64,000 nucleotides of DNA. Source: Clostridia bacterium. GTDB taxonomy: Bacteria; Bacillota; Clostridia; Oscillospirales; CAG-272. A program made the translations under genes and the position numbers. The notes under the pieces are model-generated. The model was not told where the DNA came from, made no database searches, and saw only the letters and a program-made list of their open reading frames with translations. Location: the NCBI GenBank assembly GCA_017482055.1, contig JAFUOH010000017.1, forward strand, positions 1 through 64,000, in the 5' to 3' direction. Of this stretch, positions 31,451 through 46,495 are shown piece by piece (position 1 is the first letter of the stretch; each line of letters opens with the position of its first letter).

Positions 31451-31986
31451 TGACTACAAATATTCTGCTTGCGGGCTTCGGCGGACAGGGCATCCTTTTC
31501 GCAGGCAAGGCTATCGCAAAAATGGCAATGGATTCCGAGCTTCAGGTATCCTGGCTCCCTTCCTACGGTCCCGAAATGCGCGGCGGTGCGGCTAACTGCT
31601 CAGTTATCGTATCGGACGAGGAGATCGGTTCTCCCCTGGTTGTAACTCCCGACCTGCTCATCGCGCTGAATCTCCCTTCCTTTGAGAAGTTTGAACCGAA
31701 TGTAAAAGCAGGCGGCAAGCTGGTCTACGACTCTTCCCTTATCGACAAAACTTCAAGCAGATCCGATATTGAGGTCTACGGCATCCCCGCAACTGCTATG
31801 GCATCCGATGCGGGACTTACCGGTATGGCAAATGTTATCGTACTCGGCTATCTTCTGAAGATTACAGGTCTTTTTGAGTACGACGCGTTCCTTGAACATA
31901 TGGTAGCGGGCATTCCCGCTGCTAAGGCAGCGCTTATCGAAAAGAATAAGAAAGCGCTTGAGATGGGCTACAATTACGCGAAATAA
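31450..31986 (+). CDS. korC: 2-oxoacid:ferredoxin oxidoreductase gamma subunit
   Basis: A 178-residue subunit with the CoA-linked gamma domain; the start [20 protein letters not shown] and [19 protein letters not shown] are diagnostic of the family. It completes the delta-alpha-beta-gamma enzyme. The stop is followed within 14 bp by the palindromic element at 32000-32128, which probably acts as the transcript end. Confidence 0.93.
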
Positions 31987-31999
31987 GCGATGTATTGAC

Positions 32000-32128
32000 A
32001 AAGATGCTGTCGCATTTAGCACATGTTCTGCATAAACATTCACAAAACATTGGGGCGACCACCGGTCGCCCCAACAAGTTTATTGTGAGTATTTATGTGA
32101 TACATGCACTAAAAGCGACAGCATCTTT
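32000..32128. repeat. MITE-like palindromic element, copy 1
   Basis: About 129 bp. Outer arms (AAAGATGCTGTCGC at 32000 and its complement ending at 32128) continue as an imperfect ~43-bp inverted repeat around a central hairpin GGGGCGACC/GGTCGCCCC (32052-32072). It lies between convergent genes and has T runs at both ends. Copy 2 is at 62283-62411. Confidence 0.88.
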
Positions 32129-32153
32129 TGCTTTTAATATAGTTAATTACCGC

Positions 32154-34430
32154 TTATCTCCGATACCACCATGCTACGATAATACCCACAATCAGTACAA
32201 GCGCGCATACACCAAGCATGATCCAGGTTGAAGCCGTGTTTGCAGGCAGCCCTTGTGTCTGCCCCGACATGTTGCCGAGATCTGGCACCTGCATATTGTT
32301 TTGCACTTCACCACGCCCGTTAAATCCGCCCTGATTTTCACTCTGTGACATGTCTCCGCGCTGAGGGAAGGTATTCTGCCTATCACTCTGTGCGGTATCC
32401 GTCGAATCGGTATTATCGCTCACCTCGGCTGTATCTGCCGGCACCACTGTTTCGTTAGGGATCATTGCCGCGGGATCGAAATTTTCGGGTATTCCCGACG
32501 GAATCGAACCACCTTCGGGCATTCCCGGGGGCACATTGCCGCCTTGCATATTATCACCCTGCATACCGCCAAAGCCCATGTCACCGCTCGGCATACCTCT
32601 GCCGTCAGTCTGAGTGTCGGCGGTTGGTATAAAGGAGGTCTGTGTAGTACCCGCACCACTCTCCGCGGTATCGGGCATACTGCTTTCACCGCCGCGATTC
32701 GGACGCGTCATACCGCCGTTGGAATTTCCGCGGTCCTCACCGAACATATTTCCGCCTCTGCCGCCGCCAATGCCATTATTCATGGTGCCCATGTCGGATA
32801 TATTCAATCCGGTCGTATCAACAAGAGTGCTGCTGTCTGCAGATTGCCCCTCGGAGGTAGAAGGAATGGAACCGTCAAGCTGTCCCGAAACACTCTCGGC
32901 ACGCTTCAGGCAAAATTCCTTTATCGCCGCCGCGCCCGTTTCAAACTCCTCAAAAGTGCAGAATTTTGACGGATCCTTTTCTACATAAGGCTTGATAAGC
33001 TCATATGTCTCGTCAATTACGCTTTCAAGATAGCCGTTTTCAAAGAATTGATTAATGAATTCTTCAAAATACGTGTGATACAGCTCGGTGTAAGCCTCAT
33101 CATTAAATATCCACGCCACCATCGGACGGTCGGACATATCTCCGGACACGGGAGAATCAATGGGATCATTCACCGCGCTCGATGCGTTACTGCCCTGAAA
33201 TGTGCCATAGGCAAGGTTATAGTCCCAAGGCAGCATTGACATTTTGCCATCCTCTTCATATAGGTAATAGTTGTGGATCATTGTTCCCGTGTAGCTGTCA
33301 CCATTGACCACGAAATTGTGTACTACAAAGTAGCGAATGACATTTTCGACATCCACGGCGCTCTCGATATTTTCGCCTTCGGAAAGAATCTTAAGCGAAT
33401 TTATAAGCCGCGCGGCATCTGCTTCGGTGTAATCGGTCTTGGCGCTGCTGAAAATGTTTGAGTAGCTGTCGGGATCGTCGTCGATATACTGAAGCTTAAC
33501 GTCACTGCTGCCCATTCCGCCGCCGAATCCCCCCATTCCGCCACGGTTGCCGCCCATATTGCCGATAAATTCCTCAATCTCAGCCATATCGACAGACGAT
33601 GGGTCAAAATTCTCGGGCATAGCGAAGCCGCCCTCGGTATTATTACCGTCGCCGGGCATCGCTGCAGACGGGTCAAAGTCATCCGGCATAGTGAAGCCGC
33701 CACGTGATGGTACGGTGATCTCCTCAGCAGTATCTCCCGTCTCATTTCCATTAAAATCGAACTCAAAATCGCTCATGGAAAAGTCTCTGCCGTTGCCACG
33801 ACCGCCTCCGAAGGACATACTGTCGGGCTTATACAGCTCTCCATGGTCACTGCCGTAGTTGCGCTGAAGGAAGGAATCCTCCACAGCTTCGACTGCGAGA
33901 TACAATCCCCAATCCTCGCCGTTTACCGTAATGTAAGCAAAGCTGCACAGCGGAGCCGCCGCACCGAACTCGTACATCATACGGTATACGAGGTAATCCT
34001 TCATAAAGGTGTTGTCCTGTATTATGTTATTAAGGCTCAGCTTGTCAAGCCCGTGATAGCTTTTGGTGCTGTCATACTGATCAAACTCGATCTTGAAGCT
34101 GTATCGGTCGCTGTTCATACTCGATACATTTGAAAGCGAGGTGTTGCCCTTAGCGCGTATACCGATATTTTTATACACTTCTCCGTCGATCACCGCGCTG
34201 CACACGGAATATTCCTCATTCTCGCAGGTCTCGATAAAGCTGTCCCAATCATCCATTACGATGTCTATGGTGTGTACGCGTGATGCGTCAAACAGCCTGT
34301 TCTCATAGCCGATCACACGAGCCGCCGCTTCAATACCGAGTGCCGCACCGTTCATGAACAGCACTGTCACGATAAGTGTCAGCGCTATAGCAGCGAAGCA
34401 GAGCTTATCTATATGCTTATGTGTTGACAT
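32154..34430 (-). CDS. CotH-family kinase, membrane-anchored, with low-complexity linker
   Basis: A 758-residue secreted protein. An N-terminal hydrophobic segment (about 11-33) and a C-terminal helix (STWIMLGVCALVLIVGIIVAW, in parts) bracket an extracellular region. The CotH kinase domain spans roughly residues 50-500, with the features RAKGNTSLSNVSSMNSDRYS, LNNIIQDNTFMKDYLVYRM and the catalytic-type MLPWDYNLAYGTF. Inserts rich in Gly, Asn, Met and Pro include repeats such as MPDDFDPSAAMPGD and MPENFDPSSVDM. CotH kinases phosphorylate protein substrates in spore coats of Bacillus. Third gene of the VTC operon. ATG at 34430 follows GAGGT; a GTG at 34436 is less well placed. Confidence 0.9.
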   Translation of the reverse strand: MSTHKHIDKLCFAAIALTLIVTVLFMNGAALGIEAAARVIGYENRLFDASRVHTIDIVMDDWDSFIETCENEEYSVCSAVIDGEVYKNIGIRAKGNTSLSNVSSMNSDRYSFKIEFDQYDSTKSYHGLDKLSLNNIIQDNTFMKDYLVYRMMYEFGAAAPLCSFAYITVNGEDWGLYLAVEAVEDSFLQRNYGSDHGELYKPDSMSFGGGRGNGRDFSMSDFEFDFNGNETGDTAEEITVPSRGGFTMPDDFDPSAAMPGDGNNTEGGFAMPENFDPSSVDMAEIEEFIGNMGGNRGGMGGFGGGMGSSDVKLQYIDDDPDSYSNIFSSAKTDYTEADAARLINSLKILSEGENIESAVDVENVIRYFVVHNFVVNGDSYTGTMIHNYYLYEEDGKMSMLPWDYNLAYGTFQGSNASSAVNDPIDSPVSGDMSDRPMVAWIFNDEAYTELYHTYFEEFINQFFENGYLESVIDETYELIKPYVEKDPSKFCTFEEFETGAAAIKEFCLKRAESVSGQLDGSIPSTSEGQSADSSTLVDTTGLNISDMGTMNNGIGGGRGGNMFGEDRGNSNGGMTRPNRGGESSMPDTAESGAGTTQTSFIPTADTQTDGRGMPSGDMGFGGMQGDNMQGGNVPPGMPEGGSIPSGIPENFDPAAMIPNETVVPADTAEVSDNTDSTDTAQSDRQNTFPQRGDMSQSENQGGFNGRGEVQNNMQVPDLGNMSGQTQGLPANTASTWIMLGVCALVLIVGIIVAWWYRR

Positions 34431-34440
34431 TGGCACAACC

Positions 34441-35112
34441 TCAGTTCATGTAGTCGCCGTTGTAGCTGACAAGTACCGCGCTCTCAACGCCTTTCATCTC
34501 GGCAAGCTCATTTATAAAGTCGGTGTTGTCATCCTTCAGACGAATCTCCATATTAAGCTCAATCATGCCCTTCTGTGCGCTCTTGGTCTTTGTAACGGCG
34601 CGCAGTGTGTTCTTGATAAGATATTCCTTAGCCGCAGTCTCGCTTGCGTGGTCGGCACAGCGAATGACTACGATGTAGGGATTTACATGGGACTTTTTAT
34701 TAACAAATACAAGCAGGATAACGCCGATGACCACACTGCCGATCACTGCAAGCGGTATCATACCTGCCGCCAGTACAATTCCCGCTGCAATGGACCAGAA
34801 CAGGAACGCAATATCAAGCGGTTCCTTTATAGCGGTACGGAAACGCACGATGGACAGCGCACCGACCATACCCAGAGAAAGCACTACATTGCTGGTAACC
34901 GCCAAAATAACGACCGTGGTGATCATGGTAAGCGCCACTAAAGTAACTCCGAAGCTCGACGAGTACATAACACCGGTGTATGTCTTTTTGTATACAAGGA
35001 AAATAAACAGTCCGATGCCAAATGCCAACACAATGGCAAGCAGCATATCAAGCAAGGTAACACTTGAGATGTTCTCAAGGAAGGATGATTTGAAAATATC
35101 GTTAAAATTCAT
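34441..35112 (-). CDS. DUF4956-family membrane protein
   Basis: A 223-residue protein with four N-terminal membrane helices (about 22-150, including VALTMITTVVILAVTSNVVLSLGMVGALSIVRFRTAIKEP, read in parts) and a soluble C-terminal domain of ~80 residues. The SIVRFRTAIKEPLD motif after helix 3 is the family hallmark. No function is established. Members recurrently neighbour VTC and CotH genes, as here, so a channel or scaffold role in polyphosphate handling is a reasonable guess. It lies 24 bp after the VTC gene and 10 bp before cotH. Confidence 0.88.
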   Translation of the reverse strand: MNFNDIFKSSFLENISSVTLLDMLLAIVLAFGIGLFIFLVYKKTYTGVMYSSSFGVTLVALTMITTVVILAVTSNVVLSLGMVGALSIVRFRTAIKEPLDIAFLFWSIAAGIVLAAGMIPLAVIGSVVIGVILLVFVNKKSHVNPYIVVIRCADHASETAAKEYLIKNTLRAVTKTKSAQKGMIELNMEIRLKDDNTDFINELAEMKGVESAVLVSYNGDYMN

Positions 35113-35135
35113 TGTTTTGCTCCTTTATATAAATA

Positions 35136-35807
35136 TTAATCGTATTCACGGCATGCGGCATATTTTGAAAACGCGCCCGCACGGCGATCTTCAAGCCCCA
35201 CCGCATCTCTTATGATCGACGGGAGGTATTCGTCCCATTTTACCTCTAAGATGATGGGCGAGCCCTTCACAGGGACTGTCGGCAGATCGGGGGCAAGCAA
35301 ATCTACAGATGATAGTCCGGTTCTGATATCATAATCGAGAGTCACGCGGACATTTCCGGGGGCATATACAAACGGCTCTCGTGTGTAGTCCACGATCGTT
35401 CGCGCACGGAGTCCCTGAGTCCGCATTTTTGCATACAGCTCCCGCACCAACGGATGACTGTGTGAATACATAAAGTCTATGTCTCCCGCAGCGATCATGC
35501 GCGCTTCATCGGCACTTATCTGCGCGGACTGCTTGTTGCCAAGACCATTCTGCTTGCTCTTTTTTTCAAGATGTATCAAAGACGTGTCATCATTGTAATA
35601 CCGAATGCGGAATTTTTCGCGGCTGTTGACGCCGTCAAGCTTTTCCCTGAGCGCACGGTCGGTAGGCGTATCAAAATACAGACTGCGTATCTTATATTTT
35701 CCGTCTATGGCGTGTGGGTCAAGTTGTCCCACAGCACGCATCCGCGAACGTATCGTGAGCATATCCGCAAAGCTTATCTCATGCTTGTGCTCATGGCGAA
35801 AATCCAA
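35136..35807 (-). CDS. Polyphosphate polymerase domain (VTC-type) protein
   Basis: A 223-residue protein of the VTC catalytic domain class, a triphosphate-tunnel fold that makes inorganic polyphosphate from ATP in eukaryotic VTC4. The key basic and acidic residues of the tunnel are seen in HEHKHEIS, KIRSLYFDTPTDRALREKLDG, KFRIRYYND, HLEKKSK and ILEVKWDEYLPSII. The start is TTG at 35807, 10 bp from AAAGGAG; no better codon exists. First gene of the VTC-DUF4956-CotH operon, controlled by the promoter at 35867-35900. Confidence 0.88.
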   Translation of the reverse strand: MDFRHEHKHEISFADMLTIRSRMRAVGQLDPHAIDGKYKIRSLYFDTPTDRALREKLDGVNSREKFRIRYYNDDTSLIHLEKKSKQNGLGNKQSAQISADEARMIAAGDIDFMYSHSHPLVRELYAKMRTQGLRARTIVDYTREPFVYAPGNVRVTLDYDIRTGLSSVDLLAPDLPTVPVKGSPIILEVKWDEYLPSIIRDAVGLEDRRAGAFSKYAACREYD

Positions 35808-35866
35808 CTTCTACTTACTCCTTTCATAATTTTTTACGAGCGCTTTACGCTCGCATCACATGCGAT

Positions 35867-35900
35867 ATTGTACCATTTGTTACTGAAAAGGCGCTGAAAA
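35867..35900 (-). promoter_or_regulatory. Promoter of the VTC-DUF4956-CotH operon with twin TTTTCAG boxes
   Basis: Read on the minus strand: TTTTCAG (35894-35900), CGCC, TTTTCAG (35883-35889), then 10 bp and TACAAT (35867-35872). There is no separate -35, as expected for an activator-dependent promoter. The same arrangement occurs on the plus strand at 35951-35984. Confidence 0.75.
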
Positions 35901-35950
35901 ACCTCCCGAAATATTGTAAAGAAACTGTTAATGCAAAAAACTTCACAGTT

Positions 35951-35984
35951 TTTTCAGCCTGTTTTCAGAAATACATTGTACAAT
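35951..35984 (+). promoter_or_regulatory. Promoter of the two-component system with twin TTTTCAG boxes
   Basis: TTTTCAG (35951-35957), CCTG, TTTTCAG (35962-35968), then 10 bp and TACAAT (35979-35984). The 11-bp repeat period and lack of a -35 fit an OmpR-family response regulator activating its own gene. A weaker extra half-site TTCACAG precedes it at 35942. Confidence 0.75.
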
Positions 35985-36024
35985 ATAAGTGTAACACATA
36001 TTGATATTTTAAGAAGGTATATAT

Positions 36025-36702
36025 ATGCGCATACTTATCATTGAGGACGAAAAACTGCTGGCTGAATCGCTTAAAACGCTGCTTGAATCCAAAGGCTTTG
36101 AGGTTGAACTCGCGCTTGACGGCGAGATGGGAAAGGAATACGCCGAGCTTGGCATATACGATCTTTTGATACTTGATGTCATGATGCCGAAGCTCGACGG
36201 ATATCAGGTAGCTCGTCAAGTAAGAGCAGAACGTATAACCACGCCCATACTTATGCTCACTGCGAAATCAGATGTAGAGGATAAGATCATGGGACTCAAC
36301 GCGGGCGCGGACTACTATCTCACCAAGCCTTTTGATTCCCGCGAGCTGCTTGCCTGCATAAACGCTCTCCTGCGCCGTCAAGGCGATCAGATAAATGAGC
36401 TGTGTCTTGGCAACACTACTCTCGATCTTGACACCTGCACTCTGATATGCGGCGCAAAAAACGTGCGGCTGTCTGCAAAGGAGTTTGACATGATGCGATT
36501 TTTGCTTGGCGCAAAAAAGCGCATAGTTTCAAAGGAGACGATCCTCGCAAGGGTATGGGGTTACGATTCAAATGCGGTAGAAAATCATGTGGAGGTCTAC
36601 ATTGGCTTTCTTCGCAAAAAGCTGCAGAGCATAGGCTCAAACATAACCATTGAAGCCATAAGACGGCTCGGTTATCATCTTGAGGTGAAGGACGAATGTT
36701 AA
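36025..36702 (+). CDS. OmpR-family response regulator
   Basis: A 225-residue regulator. The receiver domain has the acidic pair at residues 8-9 (IIEDEK), the phosphorylated Asp51 in LILDVMMPKLDGY, Thr/Ser switch in MLTAKSD and Lys in TKPFDSREL. The C-terminal winged helix ends with KETILARVWGYDSNAVENHVEVYIGFLRKKL (in parts) and IRRLGYHLEVK. It overlaps the kinase gene by 7 bp. Direct repeats in its own promoter and in that of the divergent VTC operon are its likely binding sites. Confidence 0.94.
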   Translation: MRILIIEDEKLLAESLKTLLESKGFEVELALDGEMGKEYAELGIYDLLILDVMMPKLDGYQVARQVRAERITTPILMLTAKSDVEDKIMGLNAGADYYLTKPFDSRELLACINALLRRQGDQINELCLGNTTLDLDTCTLICGAKNVRLSAKEFDMMRFLLGAKKRIVSKETILARVWGYDSNAVENHVEVYIGFLRKKLQSIGSNITIEAIRRLGYHLEVKDEC

Positions 36703-37913
36703 AAAAGCTGCGTTTCAGGTTCATATGTATTACGATGACCATAGTCACCGTAATGCTTGCTGTCATACTCGGTATGATAGTGGGTTTCACCAAAAATAAT
36801 TTAAGGGAACAGAGCATCAGCATGATGCAGGCGGTATCAAACTCCCCCATGAGGCCGATTATGGCAGACAAAGGACGTGATCGTGCGCCCTTTGTAAATC
36901 TTCCATACTTTACGGTGGAAAAACTGCCAAACGGGGAGTTGATGGCAAGCGGAAGCGATGAATATCATGATCTTACAGACAATGAATATCTCACTGAGCT
37001 TATGAGCACCGTCAGTGCCTCGGACGAGCAGATCGGGACCATAAAAAAATATGCGCTGCGCTACAGCAAGGTCTCTAACCCAATCTCCGAGCGAGTAGTA
37101 TTTACCGATATATCAAGCGAGCTCGCGGCAGTAAGCTCACTGACGCGTACCTGTGTTTTCATAGGCATCTTGGCGTTTGCCGTGTTCCTTCTACTCACAC
37201 TGCTGCTTGTCAGATGGGTGACCCGTCCCGTTGAGACTGCATGGAAGCAGCAGCGGCAGTTTGTGGCGGATGCTTCACATGAGTTGAAAACGCCGTTGAC
37301 GGTTATCATGACAAATGCAGAGCTGCTTTCCGAGAACAGCTCAAGTGAAGCCGTGCGCACACGCTCCGCTTACAGTATTCTTGAAATGTCAAAGCGCATG
37401 CGAGGACTGACGGAAGAGCTGTTGGAGCTTGCAAGAATCGACAATGGCACAGCAAAAATGGTATTTGAGTCGGTAAACCTGTCGGACATTGTCGAAAATG
37501 CCATTCTGCCGTTTGAAGCCATGTTTTTTGAACGATCGCTGACCCTTGACACAGCCATAGAAAAGGATATATATGTAAACGGCAGCGGCTCACATCTGCG
37601 GCAGGTCATCGACATTCTGCTCGATAACGCTCAAAAATATGCCCACTCCGGCGGTAAAGTAAAAGTGATACTGTCACGTTCGGGACATTTCGCCTGTACG
37701 CTCAGCGTATCAAACACCGGTGACGAGATACCAAAGGATGAGCTCCGTGATATATTCAAGCGCTTCTACCGCGCCGACAAATCCCGCACCGACGGTCACA
37801 GCTACGGTCTCGGTCTATCCATCGCAGAAGGCATCGTTCGCGAGCACAGAGGAAAGATCTGGGTGGAAAGCCGCGATGGGATAAACAAGTTTTCGGTTTA
37901 TCTTCCTCTATAA
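36696..37913 (+). CDS. Sensor histidine kinase
   Basis: A 405-residue membrane kinase. Helices at about 10-31 and 152-173 enclose an extracellular sensing domain of ~120 residues with no recognised fold. The HisKA domain has the phospho-acceptor His195 in FVADASHELKTPLT, and the ATPase domain carries the N box DILLDNAQKYAHSG, the G1 box VSNTGDEIP, the F box IFKRFYRADKSRT and G2 SYGLGLSIAEGIV. Partner of the response regulator just upstream (overlapping). No HAMP domain is obvious. Signal unknown. Confidence 0.93.
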   Translation: MLKKLRFRFICITMTIVTVMLAVILGMIVGFTKNNLREQSISMMQAVSNSPMRPIMADKGRDRAPFVNLPYFTVEKLPNGELMASGSDEYHDLTDNEYLTELMSTVSASDEQIGTIKKYALRYSKVSNPISERVVFTDISSELAAVSSLTRTCVFIGILAFAVFLLLTLLLVRWVTRPVETAWKQQRQFVADASHELKTPLTVIMTNAELLSENSSSEAVRTRSAYSILEMSKRMRGLTEELLELARIDNGTAKMVFESVNLSDIVENAILPFEAMFFERSLTLDTAIEKDIYVNGSGSHLRQVIDILLDNAQKYAHSGGKVKVILSRSGHFACTLSVSNTGDEIPKDELRDIFKRFYRADKSRTDGHSYGLGLSIAEGIVREHRGKIWVESRDGINKFSVYLPL

Positions 37914-37921
37914 ACAAAACG

Positions 37922-37953
37922 AGACCGCCCATACCGATCGGTACGGACGGTCT
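37922..37953. terminator. Bidirectional terminator between the kinase and DUF1540 genes
   Basis: AGACCGCCCATACC (37922-37935) pairs with GGTACGGACGGTCT (37940-37953), 12 of 14 bp, with T-rich tails on both sides. It serves two convergent genes. Confidence 0.8.
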
Positions 37954-37958
37954 TACTT

Positions 37959-38153
37959 TTAGTGGCAGGTGCCGTTTTCGCAGCCGGACTTCTTAACGAA
38001 GGATTCGCAGTCAACGCACTGGCAAACGGTAGGGTTTGCTTCATGGGTGGCAATGCGTACCTTATTGAGCGTGCAGTAATTTTCGTTGCCGCAGTGATAC
38101 TCGCACTGCTTTACGGAACATTCGATGGAGGGATTGGGAGACTTGTTTTCCAT
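37959..38153 (-). CDS. DUF1540 small Cys-rich protein
   Basis: A 64-residue protein with eight or nine cysteines (SIECSVKQCEYHCGNENYC, VCQCVDCESF, SGCENGTCH), matching the DUF1540 pattern of a metal-binding mini-domain common in spore-forming Clostridia. Function is unknown. GGATGG stands 9 bp upstream of the ATG at 38153. Confidence 0.87.
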   Translation of the reverse strand: MENKSPNPSIECSVKQCEYHCGNENYCTLNKVRIATHEANPTVCQCVDCESFVKKSGCENGTCH

Positions 38154-38177
38154 TATAAAATACCATCCTAACTTGAT

Positions 38178-38215
38178 AATATGGAGGTCGGTGTCATAAC
38201 CGACTTCGATATTAT
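38178..38215. repeat. Inverted repeat upstream of the DUF1540 gene
   Basis: ATAATATGGAGGTCGGT and ACCGACTTCGATATTAT pair in an extended, interrupted stem around GTCATA. No long T run follows. It lies between the DUF1540 start and the end of the ROK-type gene and may act as that gene's transcript end or as an operator. Confidence 0.5.
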
Positions 38216-38240
38216 TCTGTACCGCTTCAAAGTCGTTTAA

Positions 38241-39146
38241 TCAGGTATTTTTTGACAATTTCGAGAGTATGCACCGTTCTCTTAAAAGAGCCGCCACACC
38301 GTCAAGGGCGCTTCGACAGATACCAAGCGGCTCGGTAATGATCTGCGGCATCATTTCCGCATCTAAGCCTGACATGGCAAGCCGTGCGTGTAATTCTTCC
38401 GATATAACGTCACAATCATCCTCATGCTCACAAGATACATGTACCGTCTCGGGATCAATGACTGCACATAAATTCGAAAGAAGCGATATAAGCGACTCGC
38501 GGGAATCTGCTGCCCGCGCGAAATCGCCCGCCTTGCCGTGAGCACCGCTGTACAGTCTGCCGCTAAACGTAACGGCACCGTCAACGCTTCCATCGGAGCC
38601 AAGGCGTACCAACAGCGCCACACCGCTCGTATCGAGTCTTGCGGAATTAGCGGCGGCATATGCACGGCTTTCTTCAATGATCAGCTCGGGAGCGTGCCCG
38701 AGCGCCTCCGTAAAACCTTTTGCATATTCGGCAGCATCATTGCCCGCCGTCACGCATCCGATCCCAAGCAGCTCACCACCGAAGGCTTCAATAAAATGAG
38801 CGAATCCCGATAGTGCCAGTGATGTGATCTCTGTCTCTTCGGTCTCGTATTCGCTTCGTATATTCAGCGCAAGATCACATACACGCACGCGGCGCTTGAC
38901 CCCGGTCAGATCATACAACAGCATACCGCAGTTATCAGTAAGCGAGCATATACCGCTTTTACGTCCCACCGAGCCGCGGGACTGCTTGTGCTCGGTAAGT
39001 ATGCCGCAGGAGCAAAGCAGCTCCACTGCCTTGCCTACCGTCACCTGACTGAAGCCCGTCATACTCGAAAGCTGTGCACGGCTTATCTCTCCACACCGCG
39101 CCACTGTTTCAAACACCGCCATTACACTGCTTTGCTCGTTTTGCAT
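38241..39146 (-). CDS. ROK-type transcriptional regulator
   Basis: A 301-residue protein with an N-terminal winged helix (ISRAQLSSMTGFSQVTVGKAVELL, in parts, residues 20-45) and a ROK/hexokinase-like C-terminal half (MLLYDLTGVKRRVRVCDLAL; LGIGCVTAG; VALLVRLGSDGSVDGAVTFSGRLYSGAHGKAGDF). The ROK zinc motif (GHxxxxxxxxxCxCGxxGC) is not evident, so it may be a divergent member. ROK repressors usually sense sugars. ATG at 39146 is preceded by GGGAGGAGCATC. Its target is unknown; the fab operon starts 250 bp away, divergently. Confidence 0.78.
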   Translation of the reverse strand: MQNEQSSVMAVFETVARCGEISRAQLSSMTGFSQVTVGKAVELLCSCGILTEHKQSRGSVGRKSGICSLTDNCGMLLYDLTGVKRRVRVCDLALNIRSEYETEETEITSLALSGFAHFIEAFGGELLGIGCVTAGNDAAEYAKGFTEALGHAPELIIEESRAYAAANSARLDTSGVALLVRLGSDGSVDGAVTFSGRLYSGAHGKAGDFARAADSRESLISLLSNLCAVIDPETVHVSCEHEDDCDVISEELHARLAMSGLDAEMMPQIITEPLGICRSALDGVAALLRERCILSKLSKNT

Positions 39147-39399: not shown

Positions 39400-40413
39400 A
39401 TGAATTCAAGTACACGCCGCGCGCGTATAATTTCTACGGGCTCATATATCCCGGAGCGGGTGCTTTCAAATGACGATCTTTCACGTATGGTGGAAACAGA
39501 CGACGAATGGATCCGCGAGCGCACAGGTATCGGTGAACGCCGTATAAACACCTCAATGAAGAATCATGAGATGGCTGTGATCGCCGCAAAACGAGCTTTG
39601 GAAGCAAGCGGGCTTTCCCCTCTCGATATTGATCTTGTGATCGCTTCAACCGTTACCAATGATAACTACACCCCCGCTCTTGCCTGCCATGTACAGGCGG
39701 GTGTCGGCGCCAAAAACGCCTTCGCTTTTGATATAAACGCCGGCTGTTCGGGCTTTGTATATGCTCTTGACACCGCATCGGCGTTCATCTCGGCGAGCCG
39801 TCCCGGAACAAGACAGGTGAACAATGTGCTCATCGTTTGCTCCGAAGTATTGTCGCGAATTACAGATTATACCGATCGAACCTCCTGTGTATTGTTCGGT
39901 GATGGTGCAGGTGCGGCGGTTGTATGCGCCGACAGTGAACACGGACTTCTTTCATCTTATATTAAGACCGACGGCACAGGCGCCGACAGCATCACGGCTC
40001 CCGCATTGACTTCCGTTATAGCGAATGATGACGGTACCATCGAAAACAACCCCGACAAAATCACCGAGGGTCTGAAAATGAACGGCAGAAAGGTTTTCAC
40101 ATTCGCTGTCAAAGCAATTCCCGAAGCGCTCTCAGAAGCACTCAAGGCAGCAGATGTTACTGCAGATGAGCTTAAATACGTAATAATGCACCAGGCAAAT
40201 ATACGAATAATCAATTCCGCGGTCGAGCGCCTCGGTATTGATCCCGAAAAAGCCCCCGTCAATATTGAGCGATACGGAAACACCTCAAGCGCCAGCGTTC
40301 CGATACTCCTTGATGAGCTCAATCGCGCAGGAAAATTACAGCGCGGTGACAAGCTCGCCATTGAGGGCTTCGGTTCGGGACTGACCTACGGTGCCGCAAT
40401 AATCGAGTGGTAA
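39400..40413 (+). CDS. fabH: 3-oxoacyl-ACP synthase III (FabH)
   Basis: Initiates fatty-acid synthesis by condensing acetyl-CoA (or branched acyl-CoA) with malonyl-ACP. The 337-residue enzyme has the Cys116 nucleophile in DINAGCSGFVYAL, His in MHQANIRIINS and Asn in YGNTSSASVP, completing the Cys-His-Asn triad. First gene of a nine-gene operon. Its ribosome binding site GAAAGGAAATTG is somewhat distant (about 11 bp) from ATG 39400. Branched-chain preference is common in Firmicutes but cannot be read from sequence. Confidence 0.95.
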   Translation: MNSSTRRARIISTGSYIPERVLSNDDLSRMVETDDEWIRERTGIGERRINTSMKNHEMAVIAAKRALEASGLSPLDIDLVIASTVTNDNYTPALACHVQAGVGAKNAFAFDINAGCSGFVYALDTASAFISASRPGTRQVNNVLIVCSEVLSRITDYTDRTSCVLFGDGAGAAVVCADSEHGLLSSYIKTDGTGADSITAPALTSVIANDDGTIENNPDKITEGLKMNGRKVFTFAVKAIPEALSEALKAADVTADELKYVIMHQANIRIINSAVERLGIDPEKAPVNIERYGNTSSASVPILLDELNRAGKLQRGDKLAIEGFGSGLTYGAAIIEW

Positions 40414-40427
40414 CAAGGAGATAAAAA

Positions 40428-41174
40428 ATGTCAAATAAAACTGTAATCGTCACCGGTGCCGCAAAGGGCATCGGTCTGGCGATAGCCTGCGGTTTTGCCG
40501 CAAGGGGCTATAATATAGCCCTGAATTATCGTTCCGATAACGGCACACAGTGTGCTGCGCTTGAAGCCTGCCGCGCTGCCGCCAAGGACGGTGCCGAGGT
40601 TGAGCTGTTCCGCGCCGACGTGTCAAAAGCGGATGAGTGCAAAGCCATGGTCGAAGCTGTAATTGCACGCTTCGGAGGTATATGGGCACTTGTCAACAAT
40701 GCGGGCATCACCCGCGACGGTCTGCTCATGCGCATGAGCGAAGAACAGTTTGACGAGGTCATTGCATGTAACTTAAAATCTGTCTATAATATGTCAAAGG
40801 CGGTCACGCCCGTTATGACAAAGGCGCGCGCAGGACGCATCATCAGTATCACAAGCGTGGTAGGTATCTACGGCAACGCAGGTCAGACCAACTATGCCGC
40901 ATCCAAGGCAGCGATCATCGGATTCACGAAATCTCTTGCCAAGGAGATCGGCAGCCGCGGCATCACCGTCAACTGTATTGCTCCCGGCTTTATCGAGACC
41001 GACATGACCGATGCGCTGGGTGAAGATGCAAAAAAGGCACTGTACGACCGCATCGCTCTTCGCCGTATAGGCAAGCCCGAGGATATTGCAAACGCCGCGG
41101 CATTCCTTGCAAGCGAGGATGCCTCCTACATCACTGCGCAGACCCTCTCGGTCGACGGCGCGATAAGTCTTTAA
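40428..41174 (+). CDS. fabG: 3-oxoacyl-ACP reductase (FabG)
   Basis: NADPH-dependent reductase of the elongation cycle, 248 residues, classical SDR fold. The cofactor motif is TGAAKGIGLAIA at residues 9-20, NNAG appears around residue 90, and the active-site Ser-Tyr-Lys are in SITSVVGIYGNAGQTNYAASK. The C-terminus ends in VDGAISL as usual. It begins 14 bp after fabH with AAGGAG. Confidence 0.95.
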   Translation: MSNKTVIVTGAAKGIGLAIACGFAARGYNIALNYRSDNGTQCAALEACRAAAKDGAEVELFRADVSKADECKAMVEAVIARFGGIWALVNNAGITRDGLLMRMSEEQFDEVIACNLKSVYNMSKAVTPVMTKARAGRIISITSVVGIYGNAGQTNYAASKAAIIGFTKSLAKEIGSRGITVNCIAPGFIETDMTDALGEDAKKALYDRIALRRIGKPEDIANAAAFLASEDASYITAQTLSVDGAISL

Positions 41175-41241
41175 TAATATAGCGTATTATTGGGTCGAGC
41201 ATCGCTCGTCCGAATATCATAAAACGAAAGGATACAAACCA

Positions 41242-42477
41242 ATGCGAGTTGTTATTACAGGTATGGGTGCCATCACCCCCGCGGGAAAGACTCCCGACGA
41301 GCTTTTTGAGCGCGCACTTTCGGGCGTGACCACTGTTTCCGAGATCACAGCCTTTGATACATCCGATTATAAATGCCACTTTGCCTGCGAGGTGAAGGAT
41401 TTCGATCCCACCTCTTATGGTATTGATGCCAAGGCAGCACGCCGCATGGATCGCTATTGTCAGTTTGCAATGGCAGCCGCCACCGACGCATATGACATAT
41501 CGGGACTCGAACGCGATAAGCTTGACATCACACGCTGCGGTGTCATTTTCGGAAGCGGTATCGGAGGACTCGGCACCCTTGAAGAAGAGCATACCAAGCT
41601 GATGGAAAAAGGCCCCGGCAGAGTTTCCCCCGTATTCATCCCCATGATGATTTCAAACATTGCCTGCGGAAATATTGCGATGAAATATGGCTTCAAGGGC
41701 ACCTGCTACGCTACAGTTACTGCGTGCGCGTCCAGTGCAACCGCTATAGGCGAGGCATTCCGTCACATCAAGGACGGATACGCCGATGTAGTCATCGCGG
41801 GCGGCTCTGAGGCAACAATAACCAAGCTGGCAGTTGCAGGTTTTTCCAACATGACCGCACTCACTCACGGCGAGACTCCCGACACCTGCTCCCTGCCCTT
41901 CGATAAGAGAAGAAGCGGCTTTACAATGGGCGAAGGCGGCGCGGCACTGGTGCTTGAAGCTTATGATCACGCAGTCGCTCGCGGTGCGAAGATCTACGGT
42001 GAGATCATCGGATACGGTACCACAAGCGACGCATATCATATCACCGCCCCCGATCCCGAAGCATCGGGCGCGACCCTCGCAATGAGCGGGGCTATCAAAG
42101 AGGGCGGCATCACTCCCGAAATGGTAGATTACATCAACGCGCACGGTACAGGTACGGCACACAACGACTCCTCCGAGACTCTTGCTGTCAAGAAAACTCT
42201 GGGTGAAGCGGCATACAAGGTCGCAATTTCCTCCACCAAGGGTGTTACAGGCCACCTTTTAGGTGCGGCAGGTGCAACCGAGGCGATCATCACAGCCATG
42301 GCGCTTGATCGCGGCATAATACCGCCTACAGCCAACCTGCGCGAGCCCGATCCTGAGCTTGATCTTGACTATACTCCCCTTGAACCGAAAAAGCGCAACA
42401 TCAAATACGCGCTGTCCAACTCCCTCGGATTTGGCGGCACAAATGTCTCACTGCTCTTTAAGAAATTCGAGGCGTAA
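41242..42477 (+). CDS. fabF: 3-oxoacyl-ACP synthase II (FabF)
   Basis: Elongating condensing enzyme, 411 residues, with the nucleophile Cys162 in VTACASSATAIGEAF and the two His ligands in NAHGTGTAHND and STKGVTGHLLGAAG. It is 67 bp downstream of fabG and co-directional with its own AAAGGA site. Together with fabH and fabG it covers initiation, condensation and reduction. Confidence 0.95.
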   Translation: MRVVITGMGAITPAGKTPDELFERALSGVTTVSEITAFDTSDYKCHFACEVKDFDPTSYGIDAKAARRMDRYCQFAMAAATDAYDISGLERDKLDITRCGVIFGSGIGGLGTLEEEHTKLMEKGPGRVSPVFIPMMISNIACGNIAMKYGFKGTCYATVTACASSATAIGEAFRHIKDGYADVVIAGGSEATITKLAVAGFSNMTALTHGETPDTCSLPFDKRRSGFTMGEGGAALVLEAYDHAVARGAKIYGEIIGYGTTSDAYHITAPDPEASGATLAMSGAIKEGGITPEMVDYINAHGTGTAHNDSSETLAVKKTLGEAAYKVAISSTKGVTGHLLGAAGATEAIITAMALDRGIIPPTANLREPDPELDLDYTPLEPKKRNIKYALSNSLGFGGTNVSLLFKKFEA

Positions 42478-42493
42478 GAAAGGAAAGCAAGCC

Positions 42494-42976
42494 ATGTTTA
42501 ACAATGTAAACGAAATAGAAGCACTTATCTGCCGCCTTATGGATAAGCTTGATGCAAGCAAGACCGACAGCCTGGAGCTTGAGGTTGCAGATGTTAAAAT
42601 AAAGCTTGGCAAGCACACTCCGCCCCCCTGTGAGCCACATCACGGCGCGCCCTCACCACAGCCCGCTATGATGCCTGCGGTGCCTGTAAGCGCTCCCGCT
42701 GCTCCGCAGATCGCCCCGGAAGCGGCTTCTGCGTCTGCGCCTGCCGCAACGGTCAACGCGCCGTTGCTCGGTGTAGCTTATGCCGCATCCTCTCCGGAAG
42801 CCGAGCCCTTTATTAAAGTGGGCGATAAGGTTAAAAAGGGAGATATCATCTGCATAATCGAAGCCATGAAGGTCATGAACGAGATCGAATCCGATAAGGA
42901 CGGCGAGGTCACCGAAATACTGTTCGAAAACGGAAAAATGGTTGAATTCGGTCAGCCGTTGATTTCCGTAAAGTGA
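42494..42976 (+). CDS. accB: Biotin carboxyl carrier protein of acetyl-CoA carboxylase
   Basis: Carries carboxybiotin between AccC and AccDA. The 160-residue protein has an N-terminal helix region, an Ala/Pro-rich linker (about 43-90) and a biotinyl domain with the modified Lys126 in EAMKVMNEI. Start ATG at 42494 follows AAAGGAAAGCAAGCC; longer reading upstream only overlaps fabF. FabZ follows 7 bp later. Confidence 0.93.
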   Translation: MFNNVNEIEALICRLMDKLDASKTDSLELEVADVKIKLGKHTPPPCEPHHGAPSPQPAMMPAVPVSAPAAPQIAPEAASASAPAATVNAPLLGVAYAASSPEAEPFIKVGDKVKKGDIICIIEAMKVMNEIESDKDGEVTEILFENGKMVEFGQPLISVK

Positions 42977-42983
42977 GGCTGTA

Positions 42984-43409
42984 ATGATACTTGATAAAGA
43001 CGGGATCAAAGCTATCCTTCCCCACCGCGAGCCGTTTTTGCTCATCGACGAGGTAACCGAGCTTATTGACGGCAAGTCCGCCACTGCAAAATGGACTCTC
43101 ACGGGCAACGAATATTTCTTTAAAGGTCACTTCCCGGACACGCCCGTACTTCCGGGCGTACTGATGCTTGAATCCATCGCACAGTGCGGCGCAGTCGTAA
43201 TACTGGGACTTCCCGAAAACCGCGGCAAGATTGCATTCTTCGCCGGGGCGGACAATGTAAAATTCAAGCGCAAGGTAGTTCCCGGCGACACGTTGGAGCT
43301 TCACTGTGAGCTGATAAAATCCCGCTTCGGCATGGCGATCGCTCAGGGTACCGCCACGGTAAACGGCGAGCTTGCATGCTCGGCGGAAATAAAGTGCATG
43401 GTTCAGTGA
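42984..43409 (+). CDS. fabZ: 3-hydroxyacyl-ACP dehydratase (FabZ)
   Basis: Hot-dog-fold dehydratase, 141 residues. The catalytic His lies in FKGHFPDTPVLPGVLMLESIAQ (in parts), followed by the conserved Glu in MLESIAQ. It removes water in each elongation cycle. Located between accB and accC, an order widespread in Clostridia. Confidence 0.95.
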   Translation: MILDKDGIKAILPHREPFLLIDEVTELIDGKSATAKWTLTGNEYFFKGHFPDTPVLPGVLMLESIAQCGAVVILGLPENRGKIAFFAGADNVKFKRKVVPGDTLELHCELIKSRFGMAIAQGTATVNGELACSAEIKCMVQ

Positions 43410-43419
43410 GGGAACTGAT

Positions 43420-44778
43420 ATGTTCAGAAAAATATTGATCGCCAACCGCGGTGAGATCGCTGTCCGCGTGATACGCGCCTGCCGTGACATGGGCATTATC
43501 AGTGTTGCAGTCTATTCCGAGGCTGACCGCGAGTCACTGCATACGCTTATCGCGGACGAAGCCGTCTGCATCGGTGGGGCATATTCACGTGACAGCTATC
43601 TAAACATGAACGCTATCATCACCGCCGCCAAGCTGACAGGCTCGGAGGCTATACACCCCGGATACGGATTCCTGTCCGAAAACAGCCGTTTCGCACGGCT
43701 CTGCGAGGAAAACGGTATTGAGTTCATCGGTCCCTCGGCTCACTCCATCGAGCTTGTGGGCGACAAAGCAGAGGCTCGCCGTACCGTTGCGGCGGCAGGA
43801 GTGCCGATAGTCCCCGGAAGCAAGGGCATCGTCACCGATATCACAGCCGCCGAGGAGATCGCCGAAAAAATCGGTTATCCCGTAATGATCAAAGCCGCAA
43901 ACGGCGGCGGAGGTAAGGGTATCCGCATGGTAAGCGATAAAACCGAGCTCTCACGCGCTTTTGATGCGGCAAGGAGCGAAGCCGCCGCCAATTTCGGCGA
44001 CGACGGCGTTTACATCGAAAAATTCATCCGCGACCCGCATCACATTGAGTTCCAAATACTTGCAGACAAGCACGGTAACGCCATTCATTTAATGGAACGT
44101 GACTGTTCAATGCAGCGCCGTCACCAAAAGGTGCTTGAGGAGACCCCCTCGGCATTTGTGACACCCGAGCTGAGGGAACGCATGGGCAAGGCATCCGTTG
44201 CAGCCGCGCTCGCCGCAGGCTACCATGGTGCCGGCACCGTGGAGTATCTTGTTGATGCCGACCGCAACTTCTATTTTATGGAGATGAATGCCCGCATACA
44301 GGTGGAGCATCCCGTGACCGAGGTACTGACAGGCGTTGACCTTGTACGTGCGCAAATAGACATCGCGGCAGGTAAAAAGCTGAAATTCGAGCAGCCCGAT
44401 ATAGTTCCCCGCGGTCACGTTATCGAGTGCCGCATCAACGCAGAGGATCCCGCGCGCGGATTCGCGCCCTGTCCCGGCAAGATAACCAGCCTGAATGTTC
44501 CCGGTGGACTTGGAGTGCGTGTGGATACTGCAGTATACCAGGGGTACACAGTACCGCCGTATTATGATTCCATGATTGCCAAGCTCATCGTAAACGGCAG
44601 TCACCGCGAGGAAGCGATAACGCGCATGCGTCGAGCGCTTGCCGAGTTTATCATCGACGGCATCGGGTCTAATATTGATTTTCAGTTGGCTCTGACCGAC
44701 TGCAAAGAATTCCGTTTGGGGAATTACACCAATTCATTTCTTGACGATACTGACATTACCAAGCTTACTCACGAATGA
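43420..44778 (+). CDS. accC: Biotin carboxylase subunit of acetyl-CoA carboxylase
   Basis: ATP-dependent carboxylation of biotin on AccB, 452 residues, the usual length. ATP-grasp signatures are GYPVMIKAANGGGGKGIRMV, RDCSMQRRHQKVLEE and FMEMNARIQVEHPVTE. Starts with IANRGEIAVRVIRACRDMGI. Preceded by GAGGGAACTGAT. Confidence 0.95.
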   Translation: MFRKILIANRGEIAVRVIRACRDMGIISVAVYSEADRESLHTLIADEAVCIGGAYSRDSYLNMNAIITAAKLTGSEAIHPGYGFLSENSRFARLCEENGIEFIGPSAHSIELVGDKAEARRTVAAAGVPIVPGSKGIVTDITAAEEIAEKIGYPVMIKAANGGGGKGIRMVSDKTELSRAFDAARSEAAANFGDDGVYIEKFIRDPHHIEFQILADKHGNAIHLMERDCSMQRRHQKVLEETPSAFVTPELRERMGKASVAAALAAGYHGAGTVEYLVDADRNFYFMEMNARIQVEHPVTEVLTGVDLVRAQIDIAAGKKLKFEQPDIVPRGHVIECRINAEDPARGFAPCPGKITSLNVPGGLGVRVDTAVYQGYTVPPYYDSMIAKLIVNGSHREEAITRMRRALAEFIIDGIGSNIDFQLALTDCKEFRLGNYTNSFLDDTDITKLTHE

Positions 44779-44789
44779 GGTGAAACACA

Positions 44790-45680
44790 TTGAGCGAACT
44801 GTTTAAGGACTTATTTAAAAAAGCACAATACATCACGATCCCAGATTCCATCAAAAACCTCCCCGACTCAAAAAAGAAGTCGAAGGAGGAGGTGTCAAGC
44901 GAACCAAAGATCGTCTGCACCAAGTGCAAAAAAGAGGTAGCGCCCGATAAATACGCGGTGGCGCTCAGAGTCTGTCCGCACTGCGGAGCTCATGCAAGGC
45001 TGAACGCTCGTGATCGAATCGCCATGACCGTAGATGAGGGCAGCTTCGAAGAGCTCTTCTCCGAGATCACCTCCGCCAATCCCCTTGAGTTTGAAGGATA
45101 CACCGAAAAGGTAGAAAAGCTGCGGTCGCAGACTCGCCTCAACGAGGCTGTGGTCACAGGGCGTGCCAGGATACACGGTGAGGCGTGTATGCTCGCTGTA
45201 ATGGACTCTACCTTTATGATGGCATCCATGGGCAGTGCGGTGGGCGAGAAGCTCACACGACTGTTTGAGGCGGCTACGGTGGAACGGCTTCCTGTAGTGA
45301 TCTTCACCGCTTCGGGAGGTGCGAGAATGCATGAGGGCACGCTTTCACTTATGCAGATGGCAAAGGTCAGCGCCGCCGTTGGACTCCACAGCGACGCGGG
45401 GTTGCTTTACATCACAGTCCTCTGCGACCCCACCACCGGCGGAGTTGTAGCGAGCTTCGCAATGCTCGGCGATGTTATTCTCTCCGAGCCGAAAGCCCTC
45501 ATAGGCTTTGCGGGACGACGCGTTATCGAGGGCACTATAGGCAAAAAGCTGCCCGAGGATTTCCAAAGCGCGGAATTTCAGCTTGAGCACGGTTTTGTGG
45601 ATGCGATAGTTCCACGTGCTGAGCTTCCCGAGAAGATAGCGCTTATAATTGGTTTATCGAAAGGCGGTGAGGCACGATGA
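44790..45680 (+). CDS. accD: Acetyl-CoA carboxylase carboxyltransferase beta subunit
   Basis: A 296-residue subunit that with AccA transfers the carboxyl to acetyl-CoA. An N-terminal zinc ribbon is formed by CTKCKKEV and CPHCGAHA, and the crotonase-type core includes FTASGGARMHEGTLSLMQMAK. The start is TTG at 44790, 7-8 bp from GAGGTG; no ATG fits. It overlaps accA by 4 bp (ATGA). Confidence 0.94.
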   Translation: MSELFKDLFKKAQYITIPDSIKNLPDSKKKSKEEVSSEPKIVCTKCKKEVAPDKYAVALRVCPHCGAHARLNARDRIAMTVDEGSFEELFSEITSANPLEFEGYTEKVEKLRSQTRLNEAVVTGRARIHGEACMLAVMDSTFMMASMGSAVGEKLTRLFEAATVERLPVVIFTASGGARMHEGTLSLMQMAKVSAAVGLHSDAGLLYITVLCDPTTGGVVASFAMLGDVILSEPKALIGFAGRRVIEGTIGKKLPEDFQSAEFQLEHGFVDAIVPRAELPEKIALIIGLSKGGEAR

Positions 45681-46495
45681 GTGAAAAGCAAACTGTTGAT
45701 GCGCTGACCAAATTCACCCTGTCGCGCCACAAAGATCGCCCGGGGGTACGCGATTATGTCTCCCACATCTTCACAGATGTGCTGGAGCTTCACGGTGACC
45801 GTTCCTTCGGTGACGATCCCGCCATGTATACCGCCATAGCCAGACTTGAAGGCATTCCTGTGACAGTTATCGGTCATGTCAAGGGGCACACAGTACAAGC
45901 TAATATCGCTTCAAACTTCGGAATGGCACATCCCGAGGGATATCGCAAGGCAATGCGCCAGATGAAGCAGGCGGAAAAGTTCGGACGTCCGATAATCACC
46001 TTTGTAGACACCCCCGGCGCGGACTGCGGCGTAGGTGCGGAGGAGCGCGGACAAGGTCTTGCAATCGCCGAAAATCTTCGTGACATGATGGGGCTGAGGG
46101 TGCCGATAATCAGCACTGTGATCGGTGAGGGCGGCTCAGGCGGCGCGCTGGGTATCGCCTGTGCGAATCGCGTTCTGATGCTTGAAAATGCGACCTACTC
46201 GGTCATATCTCCCAGAGGCTTTGCCAGCATACTGTGGAAGGATCCCACCCGCGAAAAAGAAGCAGCGCAGACACTGCGCATGACAGCGGATGATCTTTTG
46301 GCTCTCGGAATCATAGATGAGGTCATTCCCGAGCCCGAGGGCGGTGCACATCTCGACCATATTGCCGCCGCAGATGTGTTAAAAGTAAATATTTTGAAAA
46401 ATTTATCAGACCTACTTGAAAAAGACAAAGAAATGATATATAATGAGAGATACGAGAAGTTCCGAAAGATGGGACAGTACAAGATCATCGAGTAA
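45677..46495 (+). CDS. accA: Acetyl-CoA carboxylase carboxyltransferase alpha subunit
   Basis: A 272-residue partner of AccD. Family motifs include DRSFGDDPAM, GHVKGHTVQANIASNFGMA, PIITFVDTPGADCGVGAEERGQ and VIGEGGSGGALGIACANRV (read in parts). It lacks the long N-terminal extension of E. coli AccA, as is common in Firmicutes. Overlap with accD indicates 1:1 coupled synthesis. Confidence 0.94.
   Translation: MSEKQTVDALTKFTLSRHKDRPGVRDYVSHIFTDVLELHGDRSFGDDPAMYTAIARLEGIPVTVIGHVKGHTVQANIASNFGMAHPEGYRKAMRQMKQAEKFGRPIITFVDTPGADCGVGAEERGQGLAIAENLRDMMGLRVPIISTVIGEGGSGGALGIACANRVLMLENATYSVISPRGFASILWKDPTREKEAAQTLRMTADDLLALGIIDEVIPEPEGGAHLDHIAAADVLKVNILKNLSDLLEKDKEMIYNERYEKFRKMGQYKIIE

Follow-up and report, generated by a model that had tools for sequence, protein, structure and literature searches.

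What controls the bacterial gene clusters that bring together a VTC-domain protein, a DUF4956 membrane protein and a CotH kinase-like protein? In the open-access literature we found no paper explaining VTC-DUF4956-CotH clusters and none combining DUF4956, VTC and CotH; the available part of an open-access paper that combines the VTC domain with CotH concerns a gene list and VirR, not twin-box regulation. One such cluster lies in the window analysed here, a stretch of 64,000 nucleotides from a Clostridia bacterium, back to back with the genes of a two-component system. The region between them holds a conserved control signal that can be read from the sequence and that names a likely regulator for these clusters, thereby offering a direct route to the inducing condition.

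The locus and its twin-box promoters

On the minus strand, the VTC gene (35136..35807, TTG start; Pfam PF09359) is followed by the gene for the DUF4956 membrane protein (34441..35112, minus strand; PF16316; three hydrophobic segments) and by that for the CotH kinase-like protein (32154..34436, minus strand; PF08757), which has a hydrophobic segment at its N- and C-terminal end and Gly-rich linkers. Hydropathy reveals no hydrophobic segments in the VTC protein. A profile built from 13 VTC proteins matches the structures of yeast Vtc4 with an E-value of 4e-12, and the motifs RxR, ExK, YxR, EVK and SK, which we take to be the tunnel residues, form conserved columns over the 13 sequences when these are aligned to Vtc4. 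Its sequence thus suggests that the VTC protein is polyphosphate-polymerase-like. The available part of a study of Gram-positive Pel loci describes cotH-PPP-DUF4956(-DUF4832) as accessory genes, PPP being a poly-phosphate polymerase (PMC7112168). The same three genes are found here; unlike the Pel accessory trio, they adjoin a two-component system. A Pel locus in this genome was rejected because PelG was not found in the assembly, which is 54% complete.

The plus strand carries the genes for an OmpR-type response regulator with receiver and winged-helix domains (36025..36702; PF00072, PF00486) and the recognition helix HVEVYIGFLRKKL and, directly after it, for a histidine kinase (36696..37913, plus strand; PF00512, PF02518). 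Two hydrophobic segments of the kinase, at residues 10-28 and 154-172 by hydropathy, flank a loop of ~125 residues in which no Pfam domain was detected. No NCBIfam model reached its cut-off for the regulator (best 25 of 99 matches) or the kinase (best 25 of 76).

The sequence-only reading had described identical twin-box modules on both strands of the intergenic region. A search of the whole window with the 34-base pattern TTTTCAG-N4-TTTTCAG-N10-TACAAT returned precisely two back-to-back matches, both with 0 mismatches: one at 35867..35900 on the minus strand (read from 35900 to 35867), upstream of the VTC-DUF4956-CotH operon, and one at 35951..35984 on the plus strand, upstream of the regulator-kinase operon. 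The box, the 4-bp gap and the 10-bp distance to the -10 are therefore shared exactly as that reading had stated. The absence of a -35, which it had also noted, agrees with our scan of 35780-36050 for a sigma-70 -35/-10 pair, in which 0 were found (shuffle mean 1.5), and a sigma-70 promoter with a -35 was rejected on this ground. The repeat can equally be read as TTTCAG-N5-TTTCAG, with an 11-bp period and ending ten bases 5' of the -10. An RNA element was rejected as well, a search of 31900-38400 at the Rfam gathering cut-offs having given no match.

Both motifs sit in an AT-rich gap, ~50 bases from each other, which is what speaks for an origin by chance or by recent inverted duplication. However, only 0.01 matches to the 34-base pattern are expected in shuffles even allowing up to 3 mismatches. 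An alignment anchored at the motif shows identity at 20/20 motif positions and agreement at only 31/94 flanking positions, and the copies are therefore not a duplicated segment. Taken with the retention of the boxes in relatives, these figures led us to reject chance and segment duplication, which we regard as scarcely credible. The placement of the boxes in the assembly is near-exclusive, the two copies in 35867-35984 being the only exact TTTTCAG-N4-TTTTCAG pairs in all 1.56 Mb of it (54% complete). With up to 2 mismatches the pair occurs at 25 places versus 12 for the reversed control, so that in its loose form it is only mildly enriched by itself.

The predicted 54-base leader of the VTC mRNA folds with -13.1 kcal/mol and contains a small GC-rich hairpin (35835..35855, minus strand) 5' of an AAAGGAG ribosome site.

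The boxes in related genomes

VTC-DUF4956-CotH clusters are common to many rumen and gut Clostridia among the best 80 of 480 relatives, obtained by scanning named genomes with a DUF4956 alignment. Relative to the VTC gene, the regulator is divergent at 11 of these 80 loci and co-directional at 18, and the remaining 51 have no regulator match in the stretch fetched. Ten of the 11 divergent regulators are 67-81% identical to that of the window over the matched part and one is 44% identical; Ruminococcus flavefaciens accounts for two of these loci (L243, L248). A site was defined as a pair of 5-base words belonging to one of four types, repeated with a period of 11, deviating together from the type in no more than 1 base and accompanied by TANNNT at 9-11; the four types were defined after viewing the data. 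The counts for VTC promoters leave out L271 (a partial VTC match) and L219, L227 and L234 (unusable VTC upstream), and that for regulator promoters leaves out L215, whose regulator upstream was likewise unusable.

A search for the paired boxes at related loci had been proposed by the sequence-only reading, and within these best 80 of 480 relatives it found them at the VTC promoter in 11/11 divergent loci (reversed control 1/11) and at the regulator promoter in 9/10 (control 0). The single miss, L245, is the locus whose regulator is only 44% identical. At co-directional loci of the same 80, 13/18 VTC promoters and 8/18 regulator promoters have a site, with reversed controls of 0 for both, and at loci without a neighbouring regulator the figure for VTC promoters is 21/47 (reversed control 0). 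Of the 16 loci with sites at both promoters, 14 use one type of box for the two; the permutation mean is 6.2 and none of 20,000 permutations was as high, a result that is not a true probability since the loci are related.

We also approached the boxes from the side of the regulator, which has a match at E ≤1e-48 in 112/395 genomes of the family. The 119 upstream regions compared, the window's included, comprise the listed regulator matches minus two partial ones (G208, G175) plus five extra loci, three of which (L069, L070, L073) are absent from the match list; 118 are distinct, L154 and L155 being the same. In a test that presupposes no motif, 35/119 regions contain 7 bases repeated exactly and directly with a period of 11; no other period in the range 8-22 is seen in more than 5 of the 119. 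The pair TTTMAG-N5-TTTMAG with 0 mismatches faces the regulator in 25/119 regions, faces away in 14 and does both in 11 (reversed control 0). If up to 1 mismatch is tolerated there are 57 sites, and for 44 of these the best -10 has a spacing of 10. Conservation of the sites and their geometry together with the regulator is thus a property of its relatives.

In these 119 regions, for which the fetched lengths vary, 25 have a VTC gene divergent from the regulator and 23 a co-directional one; the other 71 show no VTC gene. Within the 25 VTC-divergent regions, a pair within 1 mismatch faces the regulator in 13, faces away in 12 and does both in 11, so that about half of the VTC-divergent regulators (12/25) are without a pair facing them. 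The sequence-only reading had proposed control of both operons by the neighbouring regulator; comparison across genomes nevertheless supports this well, through the paired boxes at 11/11 VTC and 9/10 regulator promoters of divergent loci and the 14/16 agreement in box type. Three loci (L068, L072, L073) have co-directional VTC-DUF4956(-CotH) operons close to that of the window and carry a CTAAG/TTAAG-type repeat at both the regulator and VTC promoters, in much the same geometry when compared by eye.

Recognition helices and the CiaR promoter type

The 21/47 VTC promoters that have a site and lack a neighbouring regulator (best 80 of 480 relatives) raise another explanation, in which an OmpR-type regulator encoded elsewhere binds the boxes and the neighbouring pair is a fellow target; if those sites are used, a regulator must act there at a distance. 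For the window this is quite unlikely in our view, since the type of box tracks the clade of the neighbouring regulator. Among 148 regulators, a set that holds two duplicate pairs (L154/L155 and L072/L220), 78 have a site (reversed control 1). When they are classed by recognition helix, leaving out five helices unread by the rule and one short upstream region, the window's own class (E-FL) has a site in 37/46 regulators, and TTCAG or TTAAG is found at 36/37 E-type sites. Regulators with an M-type helix have a site in 31/37, with TTCAA at 31/31. Those with a VW-type helix mostly do without one (50/59), a site being present in 9/59. On a tree of 142 receiver domains the three helix classes correspond to three clades with only 2 changes, so that the agreement of helix and box is a property of clades and not the product of many independent events; for this reason we make no claim of repeated independent co-evolution. 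All in all, the neighbouring response regulator very probably docks at these boxes.

A promoter of this design has been described in Streptococcus. According to the available part of a study of CiaR (PMC3091779), this regulator binds TTTAAG-N5-TTTAAG, the G of the hexamer is extremely important for activation, and a search for CiaR small-RNA promoters placed the -10 at a distance of ten. Here too an OmpR-type response regulator adjoins its own histidine kinase, and a hexamer-N5-hexamer repeat lies ten bases upstream of a -10. A further likeness is the site at the regulator's own operon, from which we predict autoregulation; the available part of a second study reports that CiaR influences its own operon, controls htrA and represses manLMN (PMC8317062). 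The likeness in the recognition helix is partial: by eye, HVEVYIGFLRKKL is identical at 8/13 positions to VVEVYVSK(V/I)RKKL of CiaR, whose hexamer is given as NTTAAG / WTTAAG (PMC3091779, available part). The window's boxes differ from the CiaR hexamer in reading TTTCAG, with C for A as the fourth base, and many relatives have TTTAAG in one or both halves. The putative targets differ as well, being VTC-DUF4956-CotH and VTC-DUF4956-Cthe_2159 operons.

A CiaRH-like system of Bacillus, BAS0540-BAS0541, has TTTAAG-N5-TTTAAG at its own gene and at other targets, with binding reported from gel shifts (PMC4938410, available part). The geometry of the repeat, 5' of the regulator's own gene and of other targets, is that found here. 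Twenty-three genes were predicted as targets of BAS0540-BAS0541, and in the available part of that paper VTC, DUF4956 and CotH are not among the targets described, in which it differs from the system in the window. Judged by sequence, the promoters are of the CiaR type, which does not establish that the regulator belongs to CiaRH proper; the CiaH sensor domain was reported from streptococci only (PMC3091779, available part). An open-access search for CiaR with Clostridium and Ruminococcus gave no CiaR-related title among the matches listed. The CiaR promoter type is now extended into Clostridia.

Repression of manLMN by CiaR (PMC8317062, available part) suggests an alternative in which the neighbouring regulator, once bound to the boxes, acts as a repressor at both promoters or at only one of them, where the other may be activated. 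We consider this improbable, if a little less so than binding by a distant regulator, because both sites lie 10 bases from a -10, no -35 was found, and the arrangement is that used in the search for CiaR promoters (PMC3091779, available part). The position of the sites is that of a class II activator, and it is from this position that we infer activation.

A third site and a proposed switch

We searched the window's own genome with TTTMAG-N5-TTTMAG-N10-TANNNT, allowing up to 1 mismatch, and obtained 3 sites, all of them exact (reversed control 0). The third lies on another contig (G000:C18:106235-106267; region L212:6736-10069), 5' of a second VTC-DUF4956 operon, which ends in a gene for a Cthe_2159-type carbohydrate-binding protein; in its second half the fourth base is A (TTTAAG). 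Because the assembly is 54% complete, further targets may be absent from this count. The third target elsewhere in the genome and the match to the published geometry of CiaR sites both go beyond the sequence-only reading.

These observations are consistent with the following model. It is established for the family that a histidine kinase phosphorylates its response regulator. Here, the kinase would sense an envelope signal and phosphorylate the regulator, a dimer of which would bind head to tail on each repeat, the boxes standing in for a -35. Bound in this way, the regulator would recruit RNA polymerase as a class II activator, raising expression of its own operon and of the VTC-DUF4956-CotH operon and, via the site on the other contig, that of the second VTC-DUF4956-Cthe_2159 operon. 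We hold it highly probable that the system is a CiaR-like switch that regulates itself and governs modules of VTC, DUF4956 and a surface protein, a reading in which binding, direction of control and signal are inferred. More broadly, and with only a slight leaning in its favour, we propose that gut Clostridia widely use a CiaR-like two-component system as a switch devoted to paired modules. In each module a VTC enzyme and a DUF4956 membrane protein would serve a surface protein, namely a CotH kinase in one operon and a Cthe_2159 carbohydrate-binding helix in the other, and the switch would link envelope sensing to the way surface proteins are modified or displayed.

The control signal also predicts co-regulated partners: Cthe_2159 modules, to which relatives add HtrA-like proteases and a MacB-like transporter. 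In 22 genomes, hand-picked in that the regulators of all of them already had the box within 1 mismatch, TTTMAG-N5-TTTMAG-N10-TANNNT has 43 exact matches (reversed control 0). By our reading of their positions, 32/43 adjoin such a regulator or precede a VTC operon, and the 11 others include two trypsin-like protease genes, three ABC/FtsX (MacB-like) transporter genes and one Cthe_2159 gene. The protease genes, one encoding Trypsin_2 and PDZ domains (G129, L323) and one Trypsin_2 (G344, L326), belong to 2/22 genomes and parallel HtrA as a target of CiaR; in the window's own 54%-complete genome, the search with up to 1 mismatch found no box 5' of an HtrA-type protease gene. A stricter search for the TTTTCAG pair across 395 genomes gave 17 matches in 13 genomes (control 2). 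Seven of the 17 adjoin a homologue of the regulator, and the other 10 have neighbours within about 1.5 kb without similarity to the five window proteins.

The three MacB-like genes preceded by the box, in G129, G019 and G171 (L324, L325, L328), are fused ABC/FtsX genes, one of which was scanned against Pfam. At a further locus (L322, G004:C8) the box stands 5' of genes for a 114-residue receiver-like protein, below the Pfam cut-off, and a kinase-like protein with a HATPase match and no HisKA match; VTC- and DUF4956-like genes come next. In the window itself, 39400-46495 holds an apparent fatty-acid synthesis cluster, with genes named by eye as fabH, fabG, fabF, accB, fabZ, accC, accD and accA.
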